Positions 8,270-56,501 of a DNA stretch of 64,000 nt are shown one piece after another. Position 1 is the first letter of the stretch, and every line of letters begins with the position of its first letter. The notes below the pieces were generated by a model. The model searched no databases. It was not told the origin of the DNA and was given only the letters and a program-made list of their open reading frames with translations. Source of the stretch: Nitrospirota bacterium (GTDB lineage Bacteria > Nitrospirota > JACRHL01). The DNA lies in NCBI GenBank assembly GCA_016212085.1, contig JACRHL010000021.1, positions 1 to 64,000 on the forward strand, given 5' to 3'. The position numbers and the translations under genes are program-made.

Positions 8270-8412
8270 GGGCACCTCTCAAAACCGTCGCGAGCGGTTC
8301 GAGTGCAAGGCGGACGGAGCGCAGAGCCCGAGACATATCATGGTGATAGGCGAGGGTTCGAGCACCGCCCAACGCAGCAATCGGAGCGCGCAGCAGGTTT
8401 TGAGAGGTGCCC
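8270..8412. repeat. 143-bp palindromic repeat, copy A
   Basis: The element starts GGGCACCTCTCAAAACC and ends with its exact 17-base reverse complement. The 4 bases TGAC flank it on both sides (8266-8269 and 8413-8416), as a target duplication would. The left TGAC includes the stop codon of the cytochrome gene. Inside are the conserved words CAAGGCG and CAACGCAGC, which bracket an apical hairpin TATCA-TGG-TGATA. Copies B (21207) and C (28508) are inverted relative to this one and have the same length. Confidence 0.9.
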
Positions 8413-8439
8413 TGACGGTACCCGGAGCGGGCGGACCGG

Positions 8440-8808
8440 TCAGGCCGGGGCGGTCGGCGCCTCGGCCACCATGCGGTCGAGGTGGGTGCGGGTGGCCACG
8501 TCCATGCAATCGAACTGGATGGCCATGCCCGTGGGCGTGACGCGCACCACCCAGCCGCCGGCGGCAAGGCGGATCAGCCGCCCACCGTCGCGCACCAGCC
8601 CCTCCAGGTCGATCCGCGCGTTCGCCGGCAGGGGGGTCCGGGTCTCCAGGAAGCAGCCGCCCAGGCTCAGGTCGCGCACCCAGCCGTGCACCTTCAGGGT
8701 GCCGGCGGCCAGGCTCACCCCCACGCGCAAGGGCACGCGGGGCGCGGCGCGGCGCTCGCGGCTGGCGCTGGAGGTAACGGGCTTGATGGGGCGCATGGGG
8801 GTGCTCAT
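8440..8808 (-). CDS. PilZ-domain protein
   Basis: This 122-residue single-domain protein contains the two c-di-GMP signatures of the PilZ family: an RxxxR turn (RAAPR, about 19-23) and DLSLGG (DxSxxG, about 46-51) followed by CFLET. After these come the beta-barrel strands ending [10 protein letters not shown]. Such proteins bind c-di-GMP and act on motility, pili or exopolysaccharide through a partner. It is transcribed towards repeat A and lies divergent from the isomerase gene. The partner cannot be read from the sequence. Confidence 0.85.
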
Positions 8809-8856
8809 GGGCCTACTTATCGGTTGTCGCCAACCCCCGCTTTAAGGCCGGGGGGG

Positions 8857-8886
8857 TTCTCCGGCCGCCCCGCCGGGCCCTATAAT
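8857..8886 (+). promoter_or_regulatory. Sigma-70 promoter of the isomerase gene
   Basis: A perfect TATAAT (8881-8886) lies 18 bases after TTCTCC, a weak -35. The start of transcription should be near 8893, giving a leader of about 54 bases before the ATG at 8947. Confidence 0.6.
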
Positions 8887-8946
8887 GGGCGCCTCCATCA
8901 ACCGCAACCCCCGCCTGATCCAACCCCTGATACAGGACGCACACCC

Positions 8947-9453
8947 ATGAGCGATCTGACCGCCGAGATGGTCACCAGCAAGGGCACCATCCACATCACG
9001 CTGTATGCGGACAAGACCCCGCTGACCGTGGCCAACTTCGTCAACCTGGCCCGGCGCGGCTTTTATGACGGCCTCAAGTTCCACCGGGTCATCGAGAACT
9101 TCATGATCCAGGGCGGCTGCCCCGAGGGCTCCGGCCGCGGCGGCCCCGGCTACCGCTTCGAGGACGAGTTCCGCCCCGACCTCAAGCACAACGCCGCCGG
9201 CACCCTGTCCATGGCCAACGCCGGGCGCGGCACCAACGGCAGCCAGTTCTTCATCACCCACGAGCCCACCCCCTGGCTGGACGGCAACCACACGGTGTTC
9301 GGCAAGGTGGTGGCCGACGCGGACCAGAAGGTGGTGAACGCCATCCGCCAGGGCGACCGGATCGAAAAGTTGACCATCCACGGCGACGTGGAGGCCGCCC
9401 TCACCCCGCTGGCGGAGCAGATCGCCCAGTGGAACCAGGTGCTGGACCGGTAG
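8947..9453 (+). CDS. ppiB: Cyclophilin-type peptidyl-prolyl cis-trans isomerase (cytoplasmic PpiB type)
   Basis: This 168-residue protein has no signal peptide. It shows the cyclophilin core: [27 protein letters not shown] (catalytic Arg of FHRVI), [28 protein letters not shown] and the [12 protein letters not shown] loop. It speeds cis-trans isomerisation of proline peptide bonds during folding. The length and the absence of an export signal match PpiB rather than periplasmic PpiA. It is monocistronic with its own promoter and ends at a hairpin shared with the convergent Cys-rich protein gene. Confidence 0.93.
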
Positions 9454-9475
9454 GGCGCCATCCCGCCCCGGAAAC

Positions 9476-9508
9476 AACGCCCGCCCCGGAAACGCCGGGG
9501 ACGGGCGT
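9476..9508. terminator. Hairpin between convergent genes
   Basis: The arms AACGCCCGCCCCGG and CCGGGGACGGGCGT pair around a five-base loop, 23 bases after the ppiB stop and 27 bases beyond the stop of the opposite-strand gene. It may end transcription from both sides. There is no U tract. Confidence 0.45.
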
Positions 9509-9535
9509 GCGTTGGGGGGCCGCCGGGGCGGACGG

Positions 9536-9802
9536 TCAGCCGGCCATCCGGGCCCCGGCGCTCATGCGCCGGTCGGAGCAGTCCTCGGTGCACGACCCGG
9601 TGACGTGGCGGGTGATGCACTCCCGGCAGAAGGCGCCGTTGGCGGGGGGCAGGTTGCTGCCCTTGTAGTGGTCCTCGGGCCAGCTGGAGCAGTTCACGCA
9701 GAAATGCCAGGGGTCGGCCTTGCGCCGCATGCGGCGGTACGGGTGGGCCGTGGCAACCCCCCCCATCGGACCGATGCCCGCCTGGGTTCCGTTACCGTTC
9801 AT
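9536..9802 (-). CDS. Cys-rich small protein, paralog 1
   Basis: This is an 88-residue soluble protein with a GGAGG ribosome site before the ATG at 9802. The core reads HPYRRMRRKADPWHFCVNCS, then WPEDHY, PPANGAFCRECITRH and C-x3-C. It shares PYRR, WHFC-x2-CS-WP, PP, C-x2-EC-x2-RH and a final C-x3-C with two neighbours (9792 and 10876). Three cysteine pairs and conserved His suggest a structural zinc or other metal site; this is inference. I recall similar WHxCxNCxxWP proteins as conserved hypotheticals elsewhere and know no function. Its 5' end overlaps the end of paralog 2 by 11 bases, so the two are probably co-transcribed. Confidence 0.8.
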   Translation of the reverse strand: MNGNGTQAGIGPMGGVATAHPYRRMRRKADPWHFCVNCSSWPEDHYKGSNLPPANGAFCRECITRHVTGSCTEDCSDRRMSAGARMAG

Positions 9803-55603: not shown

Positions 55604-55681
55604 GGTGAGGGGGGGCTGGGCCACGGCGGTTCTCCCCCATCGTACCGGCGAGGCCTGAGGATTCCGGTGCTCCCCCTCACC
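55604..55681 (+). ncRNA. Riboswitch-like structured motif, copy 1
   Basis: A closing stem GGTGAGGGGG/CCCCCTCACC encloses GGGCCACG, GGTTCTCCCCCA, ACCGGCGAGGCC and TCCGGTG. The same ordered words occur in copy 2 (55771-55847), although the closing stems differ in sequence. Conserved interior plus covarying stem is what a cis-acting RNA shows. A U-tract terminator follows 16 bases later. The class is not securely identified; strand is chosen from the terminator and the copy 2 promoter. Confidence 0.6.
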
Positions 55682-55696
55682 TACTGACGGGTGACG

Positions 55697-55721
55697 AAAA
55701 GGGCGTTCGTGCCCTTTTTTT
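55697..55721 (+). terminator. Intrinsic terminator after motif copy 1
   Basis: AAAAGGGC-GTTCGT-GCCCTTTTTTT: a stem of GC pairs extended by A-T pairs and followed by seven T. It would end the transcript from copy 1 or act as its expression platform. Confidence 0.8.
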
Positions 55722-55734
55722 GTGCAACATTCGC

Positions 55735-55762
55735 TTGCCTTACATTGACCGTCTGGTATACT
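55735..55762 (+). promoter_or_regulatory. Sigma-70 promoter for motif copy 2
   Basis: TTGCCT (55735-55740), a 16-base spacer and TATACT (55757-55762). The predicted start (about 55769-55771) coincides with the first base of the closing stem of copy 2, as expected for a leader RNA. Confidence 0.65.
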
Positions 55763-55770
55763 CCCGCGCC

Positions 55771-55847
55771 GGTGGGGCGGGGTGGGGCCACGAGGTTCTC
55801 CCCCAATCTGACCGGCGAGCCCGTACCATCCGGCGCCCCGCCCCACC
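55771..55847 (+). ncRNA. Riboswitch-like structured motif, copy 2
   Basis: The closing stem GGTGGGGCGGGG/CCCCGCCCCACC surrounds GGGGCCACG-A-GGTTCTCCCCCA, ACCGGCGAGCCC and TCCGGCG, the same interior as copy 1 with different stem sequence. It starts where the promoter at 55735 would begin transcription. Some 250 bases downstream lies a gene for a 30-residue membrane peptide. From memory the interior vaguely recalls ion-sensing riboswitches such as the DUF1646 motif, but I cannot confirm that alignment. Confidence 0.6.
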
Positions 55848-56095
55848 ACCCCACGGCCGGGCGGCGCGGTGGAGGCCGGTCTGCCCTTTCCGTGCATTTT
55901 TGTGACAAAAGGCAGTCCGAAACCGTTCCCGGGCGTGCTATGCTCCGGCCCTCGGGTGGCCGCCGGGGTGCGGAGGGCCGCCGCCGCGGCATTCCATGTG
56001 GAATGGCCCGGAGCTTGCACTTGGATTTTGGTTGGATCCTGTGTCTGCGAGTGCCGCCCGTGGCGGCCAAACCCCAGTCGGAGATTCGCCCGATC
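55848..56095. other. Leader between motif copy 2 and a small peptide gene
   Basis: The stretch contains an imperfect hairpin CTGCCCTTT...AAAAGGCAG (about 55879-55914) and a -10-like TATGCT near 55939. It could be an expression platform or a second promoter. No credible larger gene is seen. Confidence 0.4.
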
Positions 56096-56188
56096 ATGAT
56101 GCAATCCCGCTCCATGCTGGCCCAGCTCATTTGCGCCACCTGCTTCACCCTGCTGTCCATGGCCTGGCTGCTGATCCTGGTCGCCTGA
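56096..56188 (+). CDS. 30-residue membrane peptide
   Basis: The frame encodes MMQSRSMLAQLICATCFTLL then SMAWLLILVA, one membrane helix with two Cys. Its end (SMAWLLILVA) resembles the peptide at 53108 (FSIWLILV). GGAG lies 12 bases before the first ATG. It is the first frame after two riboswitch-like motifs, so it may be their regulated gene. Function is unknown. Confidence 0.45.
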   Translation: MMQSRSMLAQLICATCFTLLSMAWLLILVA

Positions 56189-56389
56189 GCGCCCTTTTGC
56201 GGCGCCCCTCGTAACCTGCCGGCCCGCGCCCCGGCGGCCCGCCCCCGCCCAGCCCCGCTCCCCATCCCCCCCGTGTAATATCCGGCATCGGCGCCGAAAA
56301 ATATTCACACCCCCCGCCGATTTTTCGCCCCCGCCCTGACCGTTATCATGTGACCCCCGCCCGCCCCGTGCTGGAATGCGGATATGGGC
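56189..56389. other. Intergenic region, nothing recognised
   Basis: C-rich sequence with a short AT-rich patch (about 56295-56310 and 56340-56350). No gene, terminator or repeat is supported apart from the repeat copy D that begins at 56390. Confidence 0.35.
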
Positions 56390-56501
56390 GGGTACCTCTC
56401 AAAACTGTCGCGAGCGGTCCGAGCGCAAGCCGCCCCGAGTGGAGCGGCGCTGCCACGCCGCGCAGGACCCGAAACATATCGCGGTGATAGGAGAGGTGCC
56501 C
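56390..56501. repeat. 112-bp internally deleted copy D of the palindromic repeat
   Basis: It begins GGGTACCTCTCAAAAC and ends GAGAGGTGCCC. The start, the GTCGCGAGCGG stretch and the apical TATC-N5-GATA match copy A. The right half between the apical hairpin and the terminal arm, including CAACGCAGC, is missing. The CAAGGCG region is also replaced by a longer GC-rich stretch. The one mismatch in the arms is a G-T pair. Confidence 0.85.

Follow-up and report, generated by a model that had tools for sequence, protein, structure and literature searches.

A family of mobile hairpin elements with a conserved core and varying, mostly self-matched ends in a Nitrospirota bacterium and other phyla

Introduction

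Families of miniature inverted-repeat transposable elements (MITEs) are generally defined by their conserved terminal inverted repeats. Bacterial examples are QMITE2 and CIR (PMC10969869) and NEMIS and RUP (PMC3733652). Here we analyse a hairpin element that is present in four copies, A to D, in a stretch of 64,000 nucleotides from a Nitrospirota bacterium (contig JACRHL010000021.1, positions 1 to 64,000; the whole of this stretch is called the window). As far as the accessible parts of the two papers go, the element shares with bacterial MITEs its small size, its lack of coding sequence, its many copies, inverted ends, target duplications and stable hairpins, and its intergenic position. Unlike MITEs, it keeps inner stretches of its sequence across phyla while its ends change as complementary pairs, and in some genomes it docks at stop codons in one orientation.

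The closest published parallel that we have seen, again in a paper accessible in part (PMC3733652), is provided by dimers of repetitive extragenic palindromes (REPs) in Halothiobacillus neapolitanus, which lie in palindromes with a similar outer sequence. The CGTC-1 REP dimers of this species are found inside 41-bp palindromes, GGGaaGCTT-GAAAaACC, that are called targets; CGTC and GTAG, unpaired at one foot of the unit, are the two tags of known REP super-families. The likeness extends to similar outer arms in the same genus, nested palindromes, a position behind genes and stop codons supplied by the repeat. However, a REP is defined as a unit of 20–40 bp, with a stem of 8–9 bp and a loop of 4–5 nt in the CGTC type, and the element does not have this size or stem: inside its arms there is one imperfect hairpin of ∼109 nt rather than short REP hairpins. 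In addition, the published CGTC-1 palindrome has a single consensus, and arm covariation is not reported in the accessible part of that paper.

A second comparison is with the intergenic repeats R0–R200 of Pseudomonas fluorescens, which are 50–350 bp long (PMC2718517, also accessible in part). Like the element, they include repeats with inverted repeats, of five families, around a core, and show a tail-repeat-tail bias. Unlike those of the element, their inverted repeats do not differ within a family, according to the published description; the comparison is one of descriptions, not of consensus sequences.

Results

Hairpin copies in the window

Copy A lies at 8270..8412 on the + strand and scores 175.1 bits with the covariance model introduced below. 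Its 17-bp arms, GGGCACCTCTCAAAACC (8270-8286 and 8396-8412), match perfectly, and it is flanked by the 4-bp direct repeat TGAC (8266..8269 and 8413..8416). Copies B and C are in the opposite orientation, on the − strand. B (21207..21349, 168.6 bits) has the perfectly matched arms GGGTATTTCCATCAACC; its 4-bp flanks do not match, and the direct repeat is the 3-bp GTT (21204..21206 and 21350..21352). C (28508..28650, 168.5 bits) has the arms GGGCACCTCTATTAACC, with one mismatch, between direct repeats of TTTT (28504..28507 and 28651..28654). The arms of A and B differ at 7 of the 17 positions, every change being matched on the opposite arm. Direct reading thus bears out what an earlier note on this DNA had reported of the three copies, namely their length of 143 bp, their arms, the compensated differences and the flanking duplications. 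Copy D (56390..56501, + strand), which the same note took to be internally deleted, is indeed shortened, to 112 bp, but is rather a degenerate relative, scoring 29.6 bits, with mismatches at 5 of 17 arm positions and no direct repeat.

Each of A, B and C folds as a single long imperfect hairpin. In an intact copy a conserved core lies between two complementary outer arms, and the whole makes a near-complete imperfect hairpin; in A the central core (8306..8376, + strand, element positions 37-107) contains two stretches that are conserved between phyla and a variable apical stem. No covariance model of Rfam 15 matched the window at the gathering score, and two copies had no match even at E values up to 10, so that a known RNA family was rejected as the identity of the element.

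Number, length and target duplications in the host genome

The genome containing the window (G000) amounts to 2.7 Mb in 23 contigs. Searching it with a pattern for the interior gave 67 matches, against none for the reversed control, and an arm pattern gave 177, against one for the control. A covariance model built from 36 copies produced 129 hits at 121 places, eight hits being the same place on the other strand, and by this search the host genome carries at least 117 copies, a lower bound because 150 of the 2629 first-look candidates were scored with the model. Contigs C15, C16, C20 and C22 were each seen to end within a copy of the element matching at 141 of 143 bases; the assembly thus seems to be broken where copies are nearly identical, and there are probably more copies than were counted. 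For the analysis of flanks we used 112 copies, leaving out four weak ones (below ∼31 bits), four at contig ends and the copy at C23:85673.

The first point to note is that identical 4-bp flanks are present in 57 of the 112 copies, where 200 shuffles gave 1.1 on average and never more than 5, which excludes chance. Flanking repeats of 3 bp show a slight excess (6, against 1.8 on average and at most 6 after shuffling). Since the 4-bp repeats sit immediately outside the arms, the arms form the termini of the mobile unit in G000: they act as terminal inverted repeats, and insertion is accompanied by a 4-bp target duplication. The description of the copies as mobile repeats with target duplications therefore stands. 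That of a family of exactly 143 bp holds for A, B and C but not genome-wide, where this length is found in 42 of the 112 copies; 66 copies measure 139-148 bp, 39 measure 153-168 bp and 7 have other lengths. Those longer copies that were read have an additional inner stretch of ∼20 nt. The spread is patchy: beyond G000, a match was found in 20 of 244 genomes sampled from the phylum, and in none of the three relatives examined from the same family.

The arms in G000 are mostly GGGCACCTCTnnnAACC and fall into four common triplet classes. Both arms are of the same class in 63 of the 98 full-ended copies, where random dealing gives 25.0 and at most 42. The classes disagree in 35 of the 98, so that arms which do not match, whose abundance the earlier note held would tell against it, are found to some extent. 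These copies keep the 4-bp repeat less often than those with agreeing arms (12 of 35 versus 45 of 63, Fisher p 0.0006) and hence look older or recombined. Three interior types can be distinguished, each occurring with three or four matched arm classes, and some copies are chimeric.

Spread across phyla and covariation of the arms

When named genomes were scanned for an exact match to 20 bases of the core, 61 stretches were recovered, from Chlorobi, Halothiobacillus, Curvibacter, Pseudomonas, Rhodocyclaceae, Hydrogenophilales, Nitrosomonas and others; three of the 61 (L133, L141 and L142) look like chance matches without the element. From Chlorobi to Proteobacteria there is hardly any variation in the inner stretches GCAAGGCGGACGGAGCGCAG and CGAGCACCGCCCAACGCAGC, although this is partly built in, as CGAGCACCGCCCAACGCAGC was the search pattern; the apical stem varies. 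The terminal sequences differ between genera, and no conserved termini were found between them. In other phyla this core is found between different arms, which again form largely self-complementary pairs.

In an alignment of 36 copies from G000, both partners change in 14 of the 47 pairs, and double-change cells number 60, against 19.2 after shuffling. For 52 copies from many genera the corresponding figures are 408 and 116.2, with 92.8% of the cells paired, and each of the 17 arm pairs changes on both sides somewhere. When the partners are slid by 1-3 columns, the covariation score of this larger set falls from 0.53 to ∼0.1. Thus, the coordinated change of both ends that was noticed within the window extends to many genera.

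Such strong covariation would also be expected from selection on folding in place, whereby old domesticated RNA or DNA hairpins behind genes would have arms that drift with compensating changes and a core held by sequence-specific binding, perhaps with gene conversion keeping the cores alike. In line with this, sense-strand G-T cells outnumber A-C cells, by 45:16 and by 68:30. Counted by pairs, however, the two kinds come out nearly level (17 and 14; 20 and 20), so folding specific to one strand is not established. Within the arms, the G-T to A-C cells number 8:0 in Curvibacter G253, 15:11 and 5:3 in the Chlorobi genomes G252 and G248, and 2:1 in Pseudomonas G257.

Searches of plasmids gave no match with copy B and two matches with a Curvibacter copy; the latter had no match in a search of phages. 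No viral contig was matched by the exact core pattern or by the exact arm-plus-core pattern. Pieces of arm and core sequence, looked for in the open text of PubMed Central, gave only what appear from their titles to be chance matches, among the matches listed. On four viral contigs (L254, L255, L257 and L259), GGGCACCTC(G/T)AAAAACC bounds short hairpins without the core, and on L254 and L257 the 4-bp direct repeats TCTA and TTAT seem to flank these.

Two further observations concern other repeats. The Halothiobacillus copies L136, L139 and L147 contain inserts of a small repeat, GGGCTG..GCCAGCT.CGCGTTAG, which in L136 is present at three places of the hairpin. A distant sister family was also noticed, whose arms resemble GGAACCTCTGATTTATT and whose core is GCAAGGCGTCCCG..ACACAACGCAGC (loci L214-L218, L221, L223, L232-L234 and L236; genomes G064, G080, G172, G186, G198, G201 and G228), some copies of which have the 4-bp flanking repeats TTAG, TTTA, TTCA or TGGA.

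Arm change compared with core change

Arm and core identities were compared genome by genome, for copies that measure 136-148 bp and whose arms match at 12 or more of 16 positions. In Chlorobi G252, where 21 copies qualify, core identity is 84% and between-copy arm identity 36%, with a within-copy complementarity of 87%; between sites, that is, cores differ by 16% and arms by 64%, and most of these copies have an arm pair of their own. The arms of G257 are likewise individual, with cores only 73% identical. Conserved termini within a genome are largely present in G000, G248 and G253, but not in G252 and G257, where arm identity is 35-42%.

Copies at the same site give a different picture. In three same-site pairs, arms had changed at 4 of 102 positions and cores at 11 of 324, and the pairing was retained, as selection on folding would also require. 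At one site that is filled in two Chlorobi clades, the arms are unrelated (21 differences in 34) and the cores similar (21 in 108). As same-site arms are about as slow as the core, and between-site arms are almost unrelated, renewal of the arms as a pair around insertion is favoured over slow compensatory drift. The earlier note had proposed either selection on folding or copying of the ends; end copying fits the contrast better, as a matter of fit rather than of a mechanism demonstrated for either.

At the same-site rate, drift in place is too slow for an arm difference of 64% beside a core difference of 16%, unless conversion homogenises the cores, and gene conversion between them could indeed keep them alike. 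Age is a weak candidate as the full explanation of divergent arms, since core identity hardly differs between divergent-arm and canonical-arm copies (0.893 versus 0.913; Spearman 0.28, p 0.10); for G252 alone, the Spearman value is −0.11 (p 0.60). Moreover, a Pseudomonas insertion that close congeners lack is already equipped with arms of its own. In our judgement, selection on folding in place is unlikely to be what sets the arms.

Orthologous filled and empty sites

From a set of 30 Pseudomonas loci, we used 20 orthologues and set aside 10 more distant paralogues. Six of the 20 are filled, with the element directly behind a TGA stop codon inside an operon; a script flagged three, and six were recognised by reading the printed sequences, three of them with altered cores. 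The other 14 contain neither the element nor any arm sequence, 12 having a spacer of 9-10 nt and two a different following gene. No target duplication is visible at this site. The gene tree as drawn needs three changes and is also compatible with a single origin. The copies L266 and L271 of this site have a further insert inside the core. At a second site, in Chlorobi (79 genomes with the gene, 30 loci viewed), three loci are filled, three hold remnants (L295, L299 and L317) and 24 have no core in the stretch read; the short-spacer loci show no arm-like palindrome by eye, longer spacers not being examined.

These sites bear on whether the arms might belong to the target, the core having inserted into the loop of a pre-existing palindrome, such as a terminator or a short MITE. 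REP dimers inside palindromes have been described in this way (Di Nocera et al. 2013, PMC3733652, in its accessible part). Locus-specific arms, mostly without duplications, in G252 and G257 would agree with it, as would docking at stop codons, where terminators lie, and the existence elsewhere of short GGGCACCTC hairpins without a core. Against this, the empty Pseudomonas sites and the short-spacer Chlorobi loci lack the arms, the direct repeats in G000 are outside them, and one exact pattern allowing loops of up to 30 nt found no core-less short palindrome in G000. Arms already present in an empty target, the other finding that the earlier note held would contradict it, were thus not seen at either site, and we regard the origin of the arms in target palindromes as very improbable.

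Docking at stop codons

Docking was counted for all copies read from five genomes (66 of 67 hits, L386 being left out), and was defined as an element edge that falls between −3 and +2 nt relative to the neighbouring gene's stop codon, which is true of ∼1% of random positions. On the right, where the gene in question is read in the opposite direction, the edge is docked in 14 of 16 copies in Curvibacter G253 and 14 of 27 in Chlorobi G252, and in 4 of 7, 2 of 3 and 1 of 13 in Pseudomonas G257, in G254 and in Chlorobi G248, respectively; the left edge is docked in 1, 1, 2, 0 and 2 copies in the same order of genomes. Of the five genomes, then, only G253 and G252 show a clear bias in orientation. 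In G000 stop codons are found at the two edges moderately more often than at random (9 and 7 of 65, against ∼1%), with no preference for one orientation. Among the 32 docked genes of G252, G253 and G257, 18 of the 20 tested have Pfam domains, including RtcB, adenylosuccinate synthetase and phosphofructokinase, and some match the Pfam profile to within a few residues of the protein end; hence the docked genes are real.

Arm type and docking are associated. When 38 named copies were grouped by hand by arm type, the right edge was exactly at the stop codon (offset 0 or −1) in 15 of 26 copies with other arms, versus none of 12 with GGGCACC-type ends, the type that goes with 4-bp repeats in G000, Halothiobacillus and Chlorobi. 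Over the two Chlorobi genomes, divergent-arm copies are docked more often than canonical-arm copies (13 of 20 versus 2 of 20, p 0.0008) and keep the 4-bp repeat less often (2 of 20 versus 9 of 20, p 0.03), a contrast that is confounded with genome in that all 13 G248 copies are in the canonical group. Within G252, the counts are 13 of 20 versus 1 of 7 for docking (p 0.03) and 2 of 20 versus 2 of 7 for the repeat (p 0.27). That divergent arms go with docking and with loss of the repeat looks as if old copies survive only there, which would suit selection on folding in place. A 3-bp TCA repeat is present in all three copies of G254.

Fixed orientation, and the lack of duplication in most docked copies, would also be expected if the element were REP-like, though large, and were mobilised in single-stranded form by a tyrosine transposase (HUH, RAYT-like) for which the core of the hairpin is the recognition signal and base pairing locates the ends. 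The strand-biased wobble cells are compatible with this, and so is the foot of the inner stem, which is CGTC in 20 of the 52 aligned copies and GTAG in 11 (neither in 21), these being the known REP tags (PMC3733652, in its accessible part). However, computed folds show no stem of 8-9 bp with a loop of 4-5 nt at the tag. HUH transposition is not known to leave 4-bp target duplications, and such duplications occur in G000 and in Chlorobi G248. We consider movement by an enzyme of this kind quite doubtful.

Discussion

The explanation that we favour, with a confidence that is evenly balanced, is that the element is a MITE-like, non-autonomous mobile hairpin whose core is conserved and whose ends, mostly matched to each other, are exchangeable and can be renewed as a pair. 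Its mobility, target duplication, covariation and inner-stretch conservation are observed, as is docking in some other genomes. Compared with what is expected of a MITE, it is a repeated short element with inverted termini, its target duplication has a fixed length in G000, and empty orthologous sites are found in Pseudomonas, but its termini are not conserved within the family. In G000 alone the element is nearly ordinary; in its relatives it is not.

A copy would move with its matched arm pair, and the pair would be renewed together around the time of insertion. The simplest form of renewal would be the copying of one arm from the other in an extruded hairpin, by intrastrand template switching. 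The core may in this way pass from one end type to another, and could then be served by different transposases. Mismatched arm pairs would arise later, by mutation or by recombination between copies, and in some other genomes copies would come to rest, or persist, immediately after a stop codon and in a single orientation. A more radical version, which we see as possible though rather improbable, is that the ends are not inherited: the core would be recognised and a new complementary arm pair made at each insertion, with one-orientation targeting of stop codons in some hosts.

Alternatively, several autonomous elements with slightly different terminal inverted repeats may each have left miniatures, as in ordinary MITE subfamilies, with recombination mixing the interiors and a few arms. 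The arms of G000, with their prevailing sequence and four common classes, the 4-bp duplications and the chimeric copies would all be accounted for. Arm class is, moreover, partly linked to the core in G000 (the nearest neighbour shares the class in 17.3 of 29 cases versus 12.2, 13 of 500 shuffles being as high) and more so to the lower stem (21.6 of 29, none of 500 shuffles as high); inheritance of a few arm classes as subfamilies would be enough to explain G000 taken by itself. The few viral contigs with a similar outer sequence around core-less short hairpins point the same way. So does locus L238 of Halothiobacillus sp. 15-55-196, a DDE_Tnp_1 gene with an open frame of 335 aa between perfect 20-bp inverted ends, TTAAGGAAGGTCTGATCAAT, which are similar in style to the arms of the family and the sister family but equal to no arm of the family. 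Subfamilies fit less well with G252, where most of the 21 copies have their own arm pairs at 84% core identity, and with G257, where the same is seen, though with less similar cores. Furthermore, a PF01609 search of G000 and 20 carrier genomes, other transposase families not being searched, found no autonomous element with these ends: none of the 15 loci viewed in the carrier genomes has them, L238 having ends of a related style. Inheritance of a few subfamilies seems to us a possible account of the whole family, but not a probable one.

The outcome of the transposase search, like the linkage of arm class to core in G000 and the ease with which subfamilies explain that genome, also weighs against the paired renewal of ends that we favour, and it does not stand alone. 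The only DDE_Tnp_1 match in G000 (C14:118335-118517, L093) is an apparently truncated transposase without the element's ends. Isolated arms in G000 were considered as ends of a full insertion sequence and rejected: of six viewed, among 100 of the 177 arm places listed, five are truncated copies and one has little beyond the arm. Most docked copies in G252, G253 and G257 have no target duplication. The same-site rate of arm versus core change comes from three pairs, a small sample, and no end-copying step was observed. Finally, the arms of 29 copies match nearby sequence at 10.07 of 14 positions, versus 9.97 for shuffled arms, so that copying of the arms from nearby sequence was rejected as on average no better than shuffled; L360 is the one copy of the 29 that reaches 12 of 14, with 3 of 100 shuffles as high.

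It is by their ends that transposable elements are usually defined, since these are what the enzyme reads. A family that is found over several phyla with conserved inner stretches and interchangeable, mostly self-matched ends raises the question of how ends can be replaced in pairs, and the element makes it possible to test directly whether small elements can switch transposase. Where it docks at stop codons in one orientation, it would be a natural and precise modifier of the 3′ ends of housekeeping genes.

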